Source of the DNA: Urechis unicinctus
Taxonomy: Eukaryota; Annelida; Polychaeta; Xenopneusta; Urechidae
Length of the DNA: 64,000 nucleotides
Assembly (NCBI GenBank): GCA_034190875.2
Contig: CM067344.1
Coordinates: 19,487,112-19,551,111 of the forward strand
Direction of reading: 5' to 3'
The position numbers and the translations under genes were made by a program. The stretch's first letter is position 1; each line of letters starts with the position of its first letter. The notes under the pieces were generated by a model. The model did no database searches. It saw nothing but the letters and a program-made list of their open reading frames with translations, and was not told the origin of the DNA. Below, piece by piece: positions 315 to 34,186 of the stretch.

Positions 315-498
315 TAGTAGCGCGTTCGATTGCGTGTCACCACCAAGTGACGCGGGTTTTCGCCACAGTGGTATAGGTTTTCGACCCGTTCTGGGAGCAG
401 ATCGACGTCTTGAATGAACATGCAGTCATATTCATCCTTTTTCATGCCTTCAAGAAAACCGATATTCATCATGGCTGCTCGATTGAACACCGTGGGAC
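315..498 (-). CDS. B4GALT coding exon 4: FNRA and DVD metal-binding segment
   Basis: A 184-bp exon from a TATGTAG acceptor to a TA|GTAAGC donor. It encodes PTVFNRAAMMNIGFLEGM, then FIQDVDLLPE, LYHCGE and PRHLVV. DVD is the Mn2+/UDP-sugar motif of the family, and the Cys in LYHC is a conserved disulfide position. The tail after PRHLVV (TRNRTRY) differs from the usual xDKFGY. The next exon is outside the window, beyond a (TA)n tract at 1-95. Confidence 0.9.
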
Positions 499-2278
499 CT
501 ACATATCGACACATGTAGTTGAAATCTTTACGACATGGATAGACAATTGTGCACTCAGAATATGTTAAGATAAGCATAGCACTATACATAAGGTATGCCT
601 GACAATAATGCCCACCCGATGAATTACATGCTTAAACGGGGAAATAGAGTATAAATTTAATTCACACCCGTTAACACTCCCGGTTGATCTCCAGCCCTAT
701 ATACAATGATTTGCTTATCGATGATCGGGAAATGAGAATGAACATATTAAGAGATGTACCCATTTATCAATAATAACAAATCCAAGAGATACGAATACGT
801 ACATGTATGTTCCACTATATATATGGAGTACTTCACGTTTTGGTGTCGCAGAAAAGAGTGCATATGTTTGACAAATATTTGCAGGTGTTCCATGCGATCC
901 CGGAATGGGACGATGACGGCGATTTTCCATTGTGGCACGCAGTCACGTGGACCCCATGAGCCTCCAAGTATCACGTGGTTGTGATGCGTGGCTATCGACT
1001 CCCAGGACTGGATACTGGTGTCAATTTCCATGTTAGTGGCTGTAAATTTATGCGATCACATTGCCAGTTTTAGGCAGGATTTATTGGGCATCAAAATAAC
1101 AATAATACTAAATTTATGGCGTATAACTTTTCAGATTGATCAAAGCTTAGAGCGTTAAACTGCCAAAGTTAGATCGGTGCGTATCCACAGAAGCACACCT
1201 TATATTTCATATAGTTGAATGGGGTTGTGTAATGTGATGTGGCCATTATGATGTCTGATGGGAAATGATGAAGCTTTAAGTAAACGTTCTAAAGATAGAC
1301 GGAGCGGGGCATATTATAGAACACAGAGTCGGCCATCTCACCGTATGAAAATGCCACAAGCGACAACTTGAACTATACAAAATACGAACATCGGAATGGC
1401 GACATGCGTTATAAACATGTTAATCATCAAGGCTTAACTCACGAAAGCATGTCTCCATCCAGAAGCTGTCACCCGTGTAATTAGCCAAGGACAGTGCGAT
1501 TCCCTTACTAGCTCCTTGGATCTTCTTTACGTATACAAAACCCACGTAATCATTGTCTGTCACTTGGAGTTGTTGTATCATGCGATGACTGCTGAAATAC
1601 TTCCCATACTCCCTGTCCACGATACCGATAACATGAATGTCATCAGGAAGATTATGGAAGGTCTTGTCAAAGGATGACAACTTCGGATGTCCCCGAAGAA
1701 GAAGACTTGTACTGCAGTTATTATGGACAATTTGCAACACCACGTGGTCTGATGGCCGCCATTGCAGTTTGAGTTTCCGGTTGATGTATATACCCGCTAC
1801 GACTTCGTCGCTTTCGAGTGTAGTCGTGCTTAACTGTTTTATAGTTACGGAACAACCTGAAAAAAAATGAAGACAAAAGATCACCTAATTATAAATACCA
1901 GTTTGTCAGAGTTTTTGAAATAGTACTGGCTTTGTTTACATTAGGTGTCGAATTGCAGCAGCTCACGTTCAATTAAGAAACTGAATTAAGATCAAACTAA
2001 CATGGCGCTTCAGAAGGCTTTGGACAAAGCGACTTTTCCAAATTTGTGTTATCCTCTGGTGCCAGTTGAATATTGAATTTGGGTGCTGACTTCGTGGATT
2101 CGTGAACGTTGCTGCGTTGCTTGTTCGTTAAGGGGTGCATTTCATGCTGGTCGTCACTGGTAGAACACGTAGCGAAGCTCTGGTCGAAATAATTGAGTAC
2201 TGATGCGACGACCAACACAATCATCAGAAGTATAAAAGTTTTTGGCACAGAAGATAAGTTGCTTCCGCAACAACGCAT
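315..2278 (-). CDS. Beta-1,4-galactosyltransferase family gene, 5' part (4 exons, 3' end off window)
   Basis: Family role: a Golgi type II membrane enzyme that transfers galactose (or a related sugar) from the UDP-sugar to terminal GlcNAc or similar acceptors, using Mn2+. The model joins 2278-2002, 1856-1443, 1039-803 and 498-315 on the minus strand. Every junction has GT-AG ends and phase 1, so about 370 codons read without a stop. Order of parts: a short cytosolic tail, a membrane anchor (about residues 14-31), a linker, a stem exon with an ILEI/PANDER-like fold (about 108-216), then the catalytic start with PFRDRMEHL (275-283), FNRA (314-317) and the DVD metal site (340-342). The WGWGGEDDD segment and C-terminus would lie left of base 1. 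The subfamily (B4GALT1-7 or B4GALNT-like) cannot be decided here. The family call is secure; the full length is inferred. Confidence 0.9.
803..1039 (-). CDS. B4GALT coding exon 3: start of catalytic domain
   Basis: A 237-bp exon with a TTTACAG acceptor and T|GTACGT donor. It encodes residues 231-310: LGGSWGPRDCVPQWKIAVIV, then PFRDR, HLQIF and IYIVEH. These match the family pattern in which G-x(3)-P-x-DC-x-P precedes the IVIPFRNR-x-HL nucleotide-binding strand and the IYVI/VEQ strand. The split codon with exon 4 restores exactly the usual spacing between that strand and FNRA, which confirms the intron position. Confidence 0.9.
1443..1856 (-). CDS. B4GALT coding exon 2: ILEI/PANDER-like stem domain
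   Basis: A 414-bp symmetric exon (phase 1 at both ends) with a TTTTTTCAG acceptor and a C|GTGAGT donor. It encodes residues 93-230, between anchor and catalytic domain. Visible pattern: hydrophobic strands at VVLQIV (131-136), FDKTF then LPDDIHVIGIVDRE (162-175), and YVGFVYVKKIQG (196-207). The order and wording resemble the ILEI/PANDER domain of FAM3 proteins and the stem of POMGNT1, where IPDG-type turns precede a VAVKDE strand and a WAFVG-KG strand. Two N-glycosylation sequons (NCS near 139, NYT near 218) fit a lumenal location. Exon status is well supported by phase; the domain name rests on a by-eye match. It could instead be a lineage-specific stem. Confidence 0.75.
2002..2278 (-). CDS. 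B4GALT coding exon 1: start codon, cytosolic tail, membrane anchor
   Basis: The ATG at 2278-2276 opens a 92-codon exon. It encodes a 13-residue Cys/Ser-containing tail, then an uncharged hydrophobic run starting FILLMIVLVVASVL with no cleavage-site pattern after it, as expected for a Golgi signal anchor. A polar, Ser/Thr/Asn-rich linker follows. The exon ends just before GTTAGT (donor at 2001-1996), leaving one base of a Cys codon that exon 2 completes. No other in-frame ATG precedes the anchor, so this start is favoured. The 5' UTR and promoter upstream of 2278 were not resolved. Confidence 0.75.
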
Positions 2279-3264
2279 GGTTATATTTGATCGAAAATCA
2301 GTAAATCGCCTTTATCCTATTACCGGGCATTGCCTCTCGACTATGTCAAATAATCAAATGGGCAACGATGCTGGATAAAAGTCTCCGGATCCATTTTCTG
2401 TTTGACATTTAAAGCAACTCCTTATAGATCGCGAATGGGAGCGTGTATAACGTGTGACCGTTGTTAACACGTTGCCATTGCTTTATATATTGAGCGTTGT
2501 GGGCTGGGGTTTCGGGGACTATGGCCTGTGACAGCTTGCTTTACGCACGATTGATCGATGAACGGCCATGTAAATATGTACCTCTCTCAGTCCGCATTAA
2601 TCGTAATTGAACAGAACAACAATGTAGATATTTGGGGTTTATGACCGCTCTATGCAACTGACCACTCGATTGAACTGACTACAGTATTGTAATGTTCTTT
2701 AGTTCTATGTTTTATGATCACTTCCACAGCTCCTCTCCCTTGTTGGTGTCTGCTTCAGCTTGGTTTTATACTATTCTCCAGCTGTTTATATATCAAAAGC
2801 CATTATATACAGCGTGTATGGTTGATAAAGGTTGACCAGGATCCACGCCTGTATATGCTATTGGCATGTCCCCAATGACAGAGTCTGAATACAATTTGCG
2901 CCGACATAGAGCAAAAGGGCGGCCTGGGTATTCAAGGCTATCTCATCTCAGTGCCATCATAGGGTCTTTATTCCTCTATGCCTGTACAGAAACATATAAA
3001 TCCAGCTCTGGCGCCCATAAGTTTGCTAAGATGTCCTCCCGTATCCCGGACTCACAGAAAGCTCGATGTATGTCACGTTGCCAACGGCATCCCAAACCAC
3101 CAATGCAACATCCCCAAACCCCATTTAGTCCCACCACTTTAAGCGTCGTGTTTGGATAGAATCTTGTCGCCTTTCCGTTCATTAACATGCAAAGTCAGTT
3201 AATGCGTGACATGTTAATCACCATTTTGGCTCGTTTCACTCAATGTCGTGCTCACAACAACGGT

Positions 3265-3978
3265 GTAGGCAAAGAAACTCCGCCTCTGACAGTGCCGCGC
3301 TATTTAATTACTACTTTCGATCTCTCACATCCGCGCTCTAGCCTAAGGTGGGATTAGGCAAGGCACTTGGCCCTGGTGTTTTGATGATCTGATGCCACCT
3401 TAGGGGCGAGGGTCCGTATGGCAGAATCTTTAAGGATATAAGCAAATTTGCTCCTTCTCGCGATGCAGACAAGGGACAGTTTAAAAAACATACATTTTCA
3501 TATCCATAAATGTCTTAACATCAATCTTGCCTAGAGTACAACAACAGTCATACTCCTTAATCAAGAGAATCAACGAAATCCAACACAATTTTCAGAATTG
3601 TTGTCCAACATGGCTACCGCGCGAATCGAAAATGTGAGCGATATCACAACGAATTAACTTAATTATGTTCCATTGTGGGAGTCGACCATGTTGAGTTTTT
3701 GAATAAAGTTTCTTGATGTGCCGTATTTTAGTGCTCAAACAATAGAAACAGTCCTCGTGTCATTTTCTGTTATAATCTTTCATTTCGTCACAATGTTTTG
3801 GCATGGAGGTAAGTTTTTAGCGAGTTCATCTGTCATTTTGACTTCGGACCCTTAGAAATTTTGCAGGCGGCTCTTCGCCTCTGCAGTAGTGAATAGCGAG
3901 GCGCTGTCAGAGGCGGAGTTTCTTTGCCTAAAGGTGGCACCAGATCATCAAAACACCAGGAGTGAGTGCCTTGCCTAC
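3265..3978. repeat. Inverted repeat with swapped halves
   Basis: Block A (3265-3305, containing AGAAACTCCGCCTCTGACAG) and block B (3354-3404, containing CCTGGTGTTTTGATGATCTG) reappear in reverse complement as A' (3891-3930) and B' (3929-3978). A simple inverted repeat would read A-B-B'-A', but here the order is A-B-A'-B'. The blocks are exchanged around a shared TAGGCAA. This suggests two related element ends that were circularly permuted or recombined. Confidence 0.7.
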
Positions 3979-13830: not shown

Positions 13831-13929
13831 GGACCTGACTGCTTCCTTCATGAACAGCGCAGCAGTGCTACAAAGGTAATGATGGGTGGAGCTATTTATG
13901 CTATGTCAGCGTAATTGGCACATTTTTGG

Positions 13930-14457
13930 ATGATAAGGCAGTCGGTTAGGATGATAAGGTCGGTGCGGTTCCGACATGCGGTGTCAGTGATGATAAGGCA
14001 GTCAGGCAGGATGATAAGACCGATGTGATTCCGACATGTGGTGTCAGTGATGATAAGGCAGTCAGGCAGGATGATAAGGACGGTGTGATTCCGACATGTG
14101 GTGTCAGTGATGATAAGGCAGTCGGGAAGGATGATAAGGTCGGTCGGTGTGATTCCGACATGTGGTGTCAGTGATGATAAGGCAGTCAGGCAGGATGATA
14201 AGGTCGGTGTGATTCCGACATGTGGTGTCAGTGATGATAAGGCAGTCGGATAGGATGATAAGGTCGATGTGATTCCGACATGTGGTGTCAGTGATGATAA
14301 GGCAGTCAGGCAGGATGATAAGGTCGATGTGATTCCGACATGTGGTGTCAGTGATGATAAGGCAGTCAGGCAGGATGATAAAGTCGATTTGATTCCGACA
14401 TGTGGTGTCAGTAATGATAAGTCAGTCGGTTAGGATGATAAGGTCGGTGTGATTCCG
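13930..14457 (+). repeat. 60-bp minisatellite, about 8.8 copies
   Basis: Unit starts fall at 13930, 13990, 14050, 14110, 14174, 14234, 14294, 14354 and 14414. The fourth unit has a 4-bp CGGT insertion. Each unit contains two GATGATAAG words, so it is itself a decayed dimer, and ends CCGACATGTGGTGTCAGT. Because 60 is a multiple of 3, it reads open on the minus strand as a 20-residue repeat; this is not taken as a gene. Confidence 0.95.
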
Positions 14458-22433: not shown

Positions 22434-22580
22434 CTATGGCCCACTTTATTTATGGCTTACTTAGTGCTGTGCTCTTTGGTAACATGGCATCCGAACTGAC
22501 TTGTTCTCGCGTAACATTACATCATATACACCATGTTCATGGCTGGTAAATATTGACTTTGATAAAACGCCAAGGTATCC

Positions 22581-22915
22581 CAGGTGGCGTGATCGTCCTC
22601 AATCTGATGGTTACTTGGCTATCATACACCCTCTCCCAGGTGGCGTGATCGTCCTCAATCTGATGGTTACTTGGCTATCATACACCCTCTCCCAGGTGGC
22701 GTGATCGTCATCAATCTGATGGTTACTTGGCTATCATACACCCTCTCCTAGGTGGCGTGATCGTCATCAATCTGATGGTTACTTGGCTATCATACACCCT
22801 CTCCCAGGTGGCGTGATCGTCATCAATCTGATGGTTACTTGGCTATCATACACCCTCTCCCAGGTGGCGTGATCGTCATCAATCTGATGGTTACTTGGCT
22901 ATCAAACACCCTCTG
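22581..22915 (+). repeat. 56-bp minisatellite, 6 copies
   Basis: Units start at 22581, 22637, 22693, 22749, 22805 and 22861 with CAGGTGGCGTGATCGTC (one unit has TAGG). The first two carry CCTCAATC where later ones carry ATCAATC. Very low divergence points to recent expansion. Confidence 0.97.
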
Positions 22916-22920
22916 TGGAG

Positions 22921-24000
22921 CGCTCTTGTGCACATCTATCTATCGTTGAATATTGAAAATCTATCGCAATTCTGTACTGAGAGCTTCCTCCAGAAATAAA
23001 CTATAAATGTACCAACACGGAACAGTCATGTATTCATAAGAACCTTGCATAGGTCATCAGTATCAAATGAACAACAATCATGTGTGGGGCAACGGAATAG
23101 GTTTCGTTTGTTTACGTTACACTTTATACAAAGTAATCCGGAAGGGAAGATTGATTTAATCCGGAAAAAAAGTATTAATGGTAACATTATGGGTAAAATA
23201 GATTATAGATTGAGTGTTCATTACCAGACCGACCGATAAATACTGTCTTGCAGTAGTGAATGACCTGTGATATCTTTCAGGTAAAGAGACAAGGGCAGCA
23301 TTGTTGCATTAATGAGCAATGGATGTTACAGAAGAAGCATAACAAACCATCGTCGTTTTCTGCTGTAAGCCTAGTTCCGTATGGTTATCAGAGGGGTCGT
23401 TACACAGAAACTGAAATGCAAAGGTTTCTTTAAATCAACAATGTGATAACTTTCCACCATACAAAAATGCACTATACACAAAATGGATATTGGTGCAGCA
23501 CCACGTTAGGAATGGTTTTATCCTGTCGTCTAAACGTCAATCATTGTGACCTTTGTAACTCCCCTTCATGCCCAGTAATGATTTCATCCGTATGATTTCT
23601 CCTTCGCTTCATTTACCTGCTGAGACCATTGTAATGATTCCCGCTCCATGCAAGTGTACATATATTGTGTCAACAACGAGATTGTTGGGTTCAAATTCAA
23701 TCACCAGCACCTTTCTCTGGGAAACACCTTAAAACGCTCACCCTATGCCTTGATTACAGCCATTGCCTTATATTAGCGGTTAGTGTATAAGCGTGGTCAT
23801 GTGATCGGGTAGATTAATGAAGTTTGGCTTATGGTCATTCTTAGTTATTGTGTAGGGTCTTATCGCCGATCTGCCATTATATATTTAATGGTGGCTATGT
23901 TACAACATGCAGGTGTGCTATGCATTGTGGCGATAACACAGAACGACGCTGGAAAATGATTGCTACCCATTTCACACGTTACGCCACATCATCGCTATGA
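22921..24000. other. Unique AT-rich spacer between two arrays
   Basis: About 1.1 kb with no repeat, splice-bounded ORF or RNA gene that I can recognise. Confidence 0.4.
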
Positions 24001-24004
24001 TCGC

Positions 24005-24683
24005 ACTTGTGGATTGGTTGCCCACTTGGGCAATATCAAATGATGCATTTGTGGATTGGTTGCCCACTTGGGCAATATCAAATGATGCATTTGTGGATTG
24101 GTTGCCCACTTGGGCAATATCAAATGATGCATTTGTGGATTGGTTGCCCACTTGGGCAATATCAAATGATGCATTTGTGGATTGGTTGCCCACTTGGGCA
24201 ATATCAAATGATGCATTTGTGGATGCCCACTTGGGCAATATCAAATGATGCATTTGTGGATTGGTTGCCCACTTGGGCAATATCAAATGATCATTTGTGG
24301 ATTGGTTGCCCATGATGCATTTGTGGATTGGTTGGGCAATATCCACTTGGGATTGGTTGCCCAATATCAAATGATGCATTTGTGGATTGGTTGCCCACTT
24401 GGGCAATATCAAATGATGCATTTGTGGATTGGTTGCCCACTTGGGCAATATCAAATGATGCATTTGTGGATGCCCACTTGGGCAATATCAAATTGCATTT
24501 GTGATTGGTTGCCCACTTGGGCAATATCAAATGATGCATTTGTGGATTGGGTTGCCCACTTGGGCAATATCAAATGATGCATTGGTTTTGCAATATCAAA
24601 TGGATTTGTGGATTGGTTGCCCACTTGGGCAATATCAAATGATGCATTTGTGGATTGGTTGCCCACTTGGGCAATATCAAATG
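24005..24683. repeat. 42-bp hairpin satellite, about 16 copies
   Basis: The unit is 42 bp and contains GATGCATTTGTGGATTGG then TTGCCCACTTGGGCAATATC. TTGCCC-ACTT-GGGCAA is a 6-bp stem with 4-base loop, and AAATG-ATG-CATTT at the unit joint is a second inverted repeat, so every unit has two hairpins. Left units are near-identical. Right of 24225 many units carry internal deletions whose breakpoints often fall inside or next to the hairpin arms. Since 42 is a multiple of 3, several frames on both strands stay open (14-residue repeats); these are not taken as genes. Confidence 0.97.
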
Positions 24684-25433: not shown

Positions 25434-26325
25434 AAGGTGTGGGTGGTTGGGCGGCGTGGTGTAGGGTGTGGGTGGTTGGGCGGCGTGTGGTGTGGGTGTG
25501 GGTGGGTGGGTGGGTGTGGTGGGTGAGGTGGGCGTGATGTGGGTGGTGTGGTTGGGGGTGGTGTGGGTGTGGGTGGTGGCGGGGTGTCGGGGTGGGTGGG
25601 GAGGTGGCATGGTGTAGGGTGTGGGTGGTTGGGCGGCGTGGTGTCGGGTGGGTGTGGGTGTTGGGGTGTGGTGTGGGTGGGGGGTTGGGCGGCGTGGTGT
25701 AGGGTGTGGGTGGTTGGGCGGCGTGGTGTCGGGTGTGGGTGGTTGGGTGGTGTGGTGTCGGTGTGGGCTGGTTGGGCGGCGTGGTGTAGGGTGTGGGTGG
25801 TGGGCGGCGTTGTGTAGGGGTGTGGGTGGTTGGGCGGTGTGTGGTGTAGGGTGTGGGTGGTGAGGCGGCGTGGTGTAGGGTGTGGGTGGCGTGGGGGCGT
25901 GGTGTAGGGCGGTGGGTGGTTGGGTAGGGTGGTGTAGGGTGTGGGTGGTGAGGCGGCGTGGTGGTGTAGGGTGTGGGTGGTGAGGCGGCGTGGTGTAGGG
26001 TGTGGGTGGGTGAGGCGGCGTGGTGTAGGGTGTGGGTGGTTGGGCGGCGTGGTGTAGGGTGTGGGTGGTGAGGCGGCGTGGTGTAGGGTGTGGGTGGTGA
26101 GGCGGCGTGGTGTAGGGTGTAAGTGGTTGGGCGGCGTGGTGTAGGGTGTGGGTGGTGAGGCGGCTTGTGTAGGGTGTGGGTGTTGGGCTGCGTGGTGTAG
26201 GGTGTGGGTGGGTGGTTGGGCGGTGGTGTAGAGAGTGGGGGGTTGGGGCGTGGCGTGGTGTAGGGTGGTGGGGCGGAATAGAGAGTGGGTGGTTGGGCGG
26301 CGTGGTGTAGGGTGTGGGTGGAATT
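25434..26325 (+). repeat. G-rich 29-bp minisatellite, about 30 copies
   Basis: The consensus unit contains GTGTAGGGTGTGGGTGGTTG then GGCGGCGTG. The plus strand is almost free of A and C; the complement is C/A-rich, giving a long proline/threonine/histidine frame on the minus strand (25368-26333) that I regard as an artefact. Each unit supplies several G-runs of two or three at short spacing, compatible with G-quadruplex formation. Units vary in length by 1-8 bp. Confidence 0.95.
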
Positions 26326-33890: not shown

Positions 33891-34186
33891 GCTATGCTGC
33901 GGGAGCATCATCACCAAACAGATACAAGCTATGCTGCGGGAGCATCACCACCAAACAGATACAAGCTATGCTGCGGGAGCATCATCACCAAACAGATACA
34001 AGCTATGCTGCGGGAGCATCATCACCTAACAGATACAAGCTATGCTGCGGGAGCATCATCACCAAACAGATACAAGCTATGCTGCGGGAGCATCATCACC
34101 AAACAGATACAAGCTATGCTGCGGGAGCATCATCACCAAACAGATACAAGCTATGCTGCGGGAGCATCATCACCTAACAGATACAT
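33891..34186 (+). repeat. 37-bp minisatellite, exactly 8 copies
   Basis: Units start every 37 bp from 33891 with GCTATGCTGCGGGAGCATCA. Copies 4 and 8 share CACCTAAC where others have CACCAAAC; copy 2 has CACCACC. The recurrence of the variant every four copies suggests duplication of a four-unit block. The period is not a multiple of 3, so two overlapping frames translate the same repeat in rotation. Confidence 0.97.

Follow-up and report, generated by a model that had tools for sequence, protein, structure and literature searches.

A gene of the beta-1,4-galactosyltransferase family B4GALT in Urechis unicinctus carries an additional exon, placed after the exon of the membrane anchor and before the catalytic exons, that encodes a stem module of about 138 residues. 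The gene lies in the window, by which we mean the whole 64,000-nucleotide stretch that was analysed (C3:19487112-19551111, in a genome of 1.19 Gb and 926 contigs), and positions given below are those of the window unless a contig is named. The reading that we propose, and to which taken as a whole we give an even chance, is that of a type II Golgi B4GALT whose stem module arrived by one phase-1 insertion, is most likely a strongly diverged ILEI/GG domain, and plays an accessory role. In this joint reading the exon, its phases, the sister exon, the intron phase of the relatives and, in the alignment that was made, the absence of the pocket residues are seen directly, and the fold, the single insertion, the donor and the function are what we infer from them.

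The visible part of the gene consists of four exons on the minus strand, which when spliced form a single open frame of 370 residues that includes both LPDDIHVIGIVDRE and YVGFVYVKKIQG. Exon 1 (2002..2278, minus strand) supplies the start codon, a hydrophobic anchor (FILLMIVLVVASVLNYF) that was called by eye from the hydrophobic run, and the stem as far as CPKPSEAP, and it exits in phase 1 at a GTTAGT donor. Exon 2 (1443..1856, minus strand) is the extra stem module, a class 1-1 exon of 414 bp that is divisible by three and is in phase 1 on both entry and exit; it is recognised by its splice sites and phases, by a counterpart on contig C11 and by HMM-HMM comparison with ILEI. Exon 3 (803..1039, minus strand) is the first catalytic exon and matches Glyco_transf_7N (Pfam E 3.9e-23), and exon 4 (315..498, minus strand; Pfam E 6.2e-15), the second catalytic exon, exits in phase 2 and reads IQDVDLLPE, which contains the DVD metal motif of B4GALT; the exons that follow it lie beyond the window. 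Joined exons 2-4 match PF13733 (Glyco_transf_7N) at E 5.7e-42 in a Pfam search, and the best PDB match of exons 3 and 4 joined is B4GALT1 (E 5.9e-33). Across exons 1-4 all three acceptors end in AG, all four donors start with GT, and all three junctions are in phase 1.

A long open frame alone is weak evidence, as 42 out of 500 random sequences of 6 kb contain a stop-to-stop frame of at least 154 codons, and the case for exon 2 therefore rests on the splicing, the phases and the exon of the sister gene; judged by these features of the sequence, exon 2 is a real exon. The first-pass annotation had described a phase-preserving 414-bp exon between the membrane anchor and the start of the B4GALT catalytic region, with junctions at 2002/1856 and 1443/1039; splice sites, phases and frame agree with this description, and both junctions are correct by splice sites and frame. 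That exon 2 is skipped, or forms part of some other transcript, leaving an ordinary B4GALT enzyme, strikes us as highly improbable: the loss of a class 1-1 exon would indeed leave the frame intact and go unnoticed, but the splice sites and phases of exon 2 suit both of its neighbours and the C11 gene shows the identical exon order. The exon was also considered as a piece of another gene, which was ruled out on the fit of its phases to both neighbours and on the order kept in C11. Searches of the window with Rfam (gathering threshold) and ARAGORN gave no matches.

A companion to the window exon is found within the B4GALT family of the same genome. A profile search with PF13733 yielded 106 exon matches, and 30 loci from this search (L025-L054) were examined with about 1.5 kb of flank. 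Among them the C11 locus L031 shows, between its anchor and catalytic exons, an exon with phase-1 borders on both sides. This C11 exon 2 measures 403 bp, a length that misses divisibility by three by one base, and its frame is broken once; read across the frame break, it reaches a local score of 45 against the window exon, which was matched by 12 of 2000 shuffles (top shuffle 55), and the global score of 29 was matched by 7 of 2000. A tree of the catalytic exons (exons 3 and 4) from 24 loci places the window gene and the C11 gene as a pair (support 0.843); L036, the broken near copy, and L053, the same gene as L026, had been left out of it beforehand, and L027, L032, L037 and L042 dropped out because their exon 4 match was absent. 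When a profile of the two exons was run over 1273 frames from 34 loci, it returned at E<0.01 its two source exons and a relative on C4 (best 1.1e-6), and nothing else, and a genome search with the window exon returned two places, its own and that of a copy at a distance of 34 kb. Exon 2 as a general feature of B4GALT genes was rejected, being absent from seven genes whose anchor exon can be seen (L028, L030, L033, L035, L042, L050, and L026 with L063). In exon 5 the motif reads YFGG in the C11 gene and in the broken copy, and LFGG or IFGG in the C1 genes seen; a tyrosine at the first position of YFGG goes with the transfer of galactose and not of N-acetylgalactosamine. Many of the PF13733 matches lie on C1, where they form a big local expansion of B4GALT-like genes, several of them with stops.

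The place into which the exon was inserted can be recognised in relatives, as a phase-1 intron follows the CPC motif in L028, L033, L035, L042 and L050, all of them without exon 2 (scored by eye; L030 falls outside this count, and within it L042 (C884, 39.8 kb) and L035 (C13) are near-identical B4GALT loci, perhaps an unmerged haplotype copy). A symmetrical 1-1 exon inside a phase-1 intron is a classical sign of exon shuffling. Since the C11 exon stands at the same place, the tree pairs the two genes and the relatives have the phase-1 intron, there seems to have been a single entry of a symmetrical exon into a phase-1 intron. We would picture the module as having arrived, presumably a single time, as one symmetrical exon of phase 1 that settled in the phase-1 intron separating the anchor exon from the catalytic exons. 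The insertion would date to the ancestor shared by a small branch of B4GALT genes, made up of the window gene, the C11 gene and the decayed copies, with a donor perhaps to be sought among single-exon GG modules such as those on C5. The joining of an extra module to a B4GALT, as originally claimed, has thus held up, with the class 1-1 exon, its C11 counterpart, the tree pairing and the phase-1 introns of the relatives all in agreement.

The identity of the module is a separate matter, for which clear ILEI modules elsewhere in the genome provide the standard of comparison. A genome search with PF15711 gave eight matches, five of them above the cut-off, and the window exon is not among the eight. 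The gene L017 on C5 (C5:45699607-45700727) has two ILEI/GG modules in tandem, both encoded by single phase-1 exons of class 1-1, one of 477 and the other of 498 bp, which match Pfam ILEI at E 2.6e-12 and 1.6e-12. The ILEI matches on C9 (POMGNT1-like) and on C2 are partial, separate pieces, as if split by introns. In exon structure and in score alike, the window exon resembles the C5 type; like it, the modules on C5 are each contained in a single class 1-1 exon, and they are its best pattern match, although they match Pfam ILEI clearly and the window exon is without a match, whereas the POMGNT1-like gene on C9 has its ILEI in separate partial pieces and the window module is one exon.

Searches with the exon alone did not bring up the family. 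Against Pfam there was no PF15711 match at E 10 and one line, to an unrelated family, at E 0.087; against PDB sequences there was no ILEI match and one line, to an unrelated protein, at E 1.4, and the C11 exon gave no result there. FAM3 and POMGNT1 were both absent from the two matches (E 1.4 and 2) of a PDB search with the two-exon profile, and a home-made ILEI HMM (HMMER) left the window exon unlisted at E 10, with some shuffles listed. The RG and FD motifs, which never vary among the seven ILEI sequences that were compared, are missing from the window exon. It had been claimed that the exon encodes an ordered domain, which was not borne out by single-sequence AlphaFold, the models being uninformative at a mean pLDDT of 31.2 for exon 2 and 32.9 for its core; Foldseek, run on the low-pLDDT core model, gave 21 matches with a best E of 4.6.

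The comparison of profile with profile tells more. In hhalign, true ILEI members left out one by one were recovered at 98.0-99.95% probability. The window exon alone attained, against the seven ILEI sequences, a score matched by 12 of 400 shuffles, a proportion that fell to 4 of 400 against the C5 modules only and rose to 102 of 400 without them, and the score of the C11 exon alone was matched by 14 of 200. Combined, the window and C11 exons gave against the seven sequences a probability of 34% and a score of 28.9 that none of 200 column shuffles matched; against the C5 modules by themselves the figure was again 0 of 200, and with these left out it was 1 of 200. In two alignments tried on two templates, 0, 0, 1 and 2 of 500 column shuffles matched the score, at probabilities of 7.8-34%; the real scores ran from 22.1 to 28.9, against 10.0-10.7 for reversed profiles and at most 17.0 for 36 decoy pairs. 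The aligner's own comparison of the two exons with ILEI gave 7.8%. With the C4 pieces added, the probability was 40% in the best setting (0 of 199 shuffles) and 13% in a free three-way alignment (0 of 200), and for C11 and C4 without the window exon it was 1.2% (7 of 200). Pairwise against the C5b module, the score of the C11 exon was matched by 2 of 500 shuffles, and for the window exon the count was 30 of 500. The majority of the remaining pairs were at chance level.

These comparisons lend moderate and indirect support, short of proof, to the module being a remote ILEI/GG domain. What stands of the ILEI/PANDER-like claim is that the exon, paired with its C11 sister, beats nearly all shuffles; what does not is any recognition by Pfam or PDB of the exon alone, and the HMM-HMM probability stays at 8-40%. 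The same data can be read as a stem module particular to this lineage, with a fold that is different or unknown, whose likeness to ILEI comes from a chance pattern of strands and helices, and this we think rather unlikely, though it must be taken seriously. It would account for an exon that alone goes unmatched by Pfam, PDB and HMMER, for the low HMM-HMM probabilities, and for the missing RG and FD motifs and sugar-contact residues; it sits less well with a score that, once the sister exon is included, no more than 2 of 500 column shuffles reach in any of four settings and that reversed profiles, at 10.0-10.7, fall short of, nor would it lead one to expect the exon class of the C5 ILEI modules. 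In this reading, too, the module would have been gained as a symmetrical exon.

POMGNT1 is a known example of a glycosyltransferase that is helped by an extra stem module. According to PMC9802357, that stem contacts GlcNAc via R129, D179 and R207. At the corresponding columns, where the alignment is uncertain, the window exon has V, R and N and the C11 exon E, G and N; all three contacts are kept in C5a, C2, FAM3A, FAM3B and FAM3C, and C5b keeps the first only. A sugar pocket or sensor of the POMGNT1 type is hence not supported by the residues found, and neither is the proposal of a stem that senses carbohydrate in the manner of POMGNT1, R129, D179 and R207 being absent from both exons. The module would not use the POMGNT1 GlcNAc pocket, because the contact residues are missing, and it would probably act as an accessory surface, either to hold an acceptor, be it protein or glycan, or to position the enzyme.

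The other three copies of the gene are broken, so that the window gene may or may not be intact. In the copy 34 kb away, whose five longest matching stretches are 84-99% identical to the window gene, exon 2 has a stop and a deletion, exon 5 has stops, and exon 4 is damaged, its DVD motif gone (by eye). C4 holds a further relative of the C11 exon, now decayed (C4:17611109-17611393; weak matches, E 0.2 to 1.5), which adjoins a broken PF13733 exon (C4:17611601) in a wider gene that is legible in pieces and has many stops. Four genes carry exon 2, and only the window gene is free of breaks in its visible part. The window gene might itself be a decaying duplicate whose module is out of use, a possibility that we consider quite improbable. 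The damage to exons 2, 4 and 5 of the 34-kb copy, the one-base frame break in C11 exon 2 and the stops of the C4 copy all point that way, and no Glyco_transf_7C (PF02709) exon was seen for the window gene; the expected site of this exon falls in a run of N, however, and if the exons are spaced as they are in the copy, the fifth exon of the window gene would sit in a run of 2500 N (C3:19484612-19487111) that abuts the window. The four visible exons, moreover, have neither stop nor frameshift and keep their splice sites and the DVD motif, and a lone break of one base, of the kind that C11 shows, can also arise as an error of assembly.

Set against known systems, the window gene shares with B4GALT1 and the GT7 family the anchor, the stem and the Glyco_transf_7N catalytic exons, and adds to them a stem exon of 138 codons. 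With POMGNT1, whose stem is FAM3B/PANDER-like, it shares the layout of anchor, extra stem domain and catalytic domain, as described for this enzyme in PMC9802357; it differs in its catalytic family and in not keeping R129, D179 and R207. The C. elegans protein FAMP-1/M70.4 likewise joins a FAM3-like domain to another C-terminal domain, but it has two FAM3-like domains, a different C-terminal domain and no B4GALT part (PMC9802357). GG domains are reported, in PMC10276149, in FAM3 proteins, POMGnT1, phage gp35 and TMEM2, and CEMIP and TMEM2, which have GG domains, are there hyaluronan-related proteins. A B4GALT with an ILEI/GG module was not found among the open-literature titles and starts of abstracts that the searches listed, and the architecture may be recorded elsewhere. 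A fuller evolutionary account, which we hold with slightly less than even confidence, is that an ILEI/GG phase-1 exon was shuffled into the B4GALT stem and produced independently a layout like that of POMGNT1, the sugar pocket then being lost or remade for another acceptor. If this is true, exon shuffling would have given a second enzyme family a module that may be related, which would show that the layout can arise more than once, and the gene would offer a natural test of the role of such a module in the absence of the known sugar-contact residues. The case is also relevant to the ways in which a B4GALT family as large as the one in this genome may diversify.

Some further features of the window are recorded here. 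At 3266-3977, two nested pairs of inverted repeats with arms of 39 nt (95%) and 47 nt (89%) and 529-587 nt between the arms resemble a small mobile element, and for a stretch near 3111-3176 the same match is also present in L006. Minisatellite arrays occur at 13929-14457, 22578-22914, 23997-24683, 25436-26272 and 33891-34185, the array at 25436-26272 consisting of 28 copies of a GC-skewed 29-bp unit. On the same contig, an open frame of 444 codons (L007, C3:19447502-19448833) looks, by its pattern, like ankyrin repeats.
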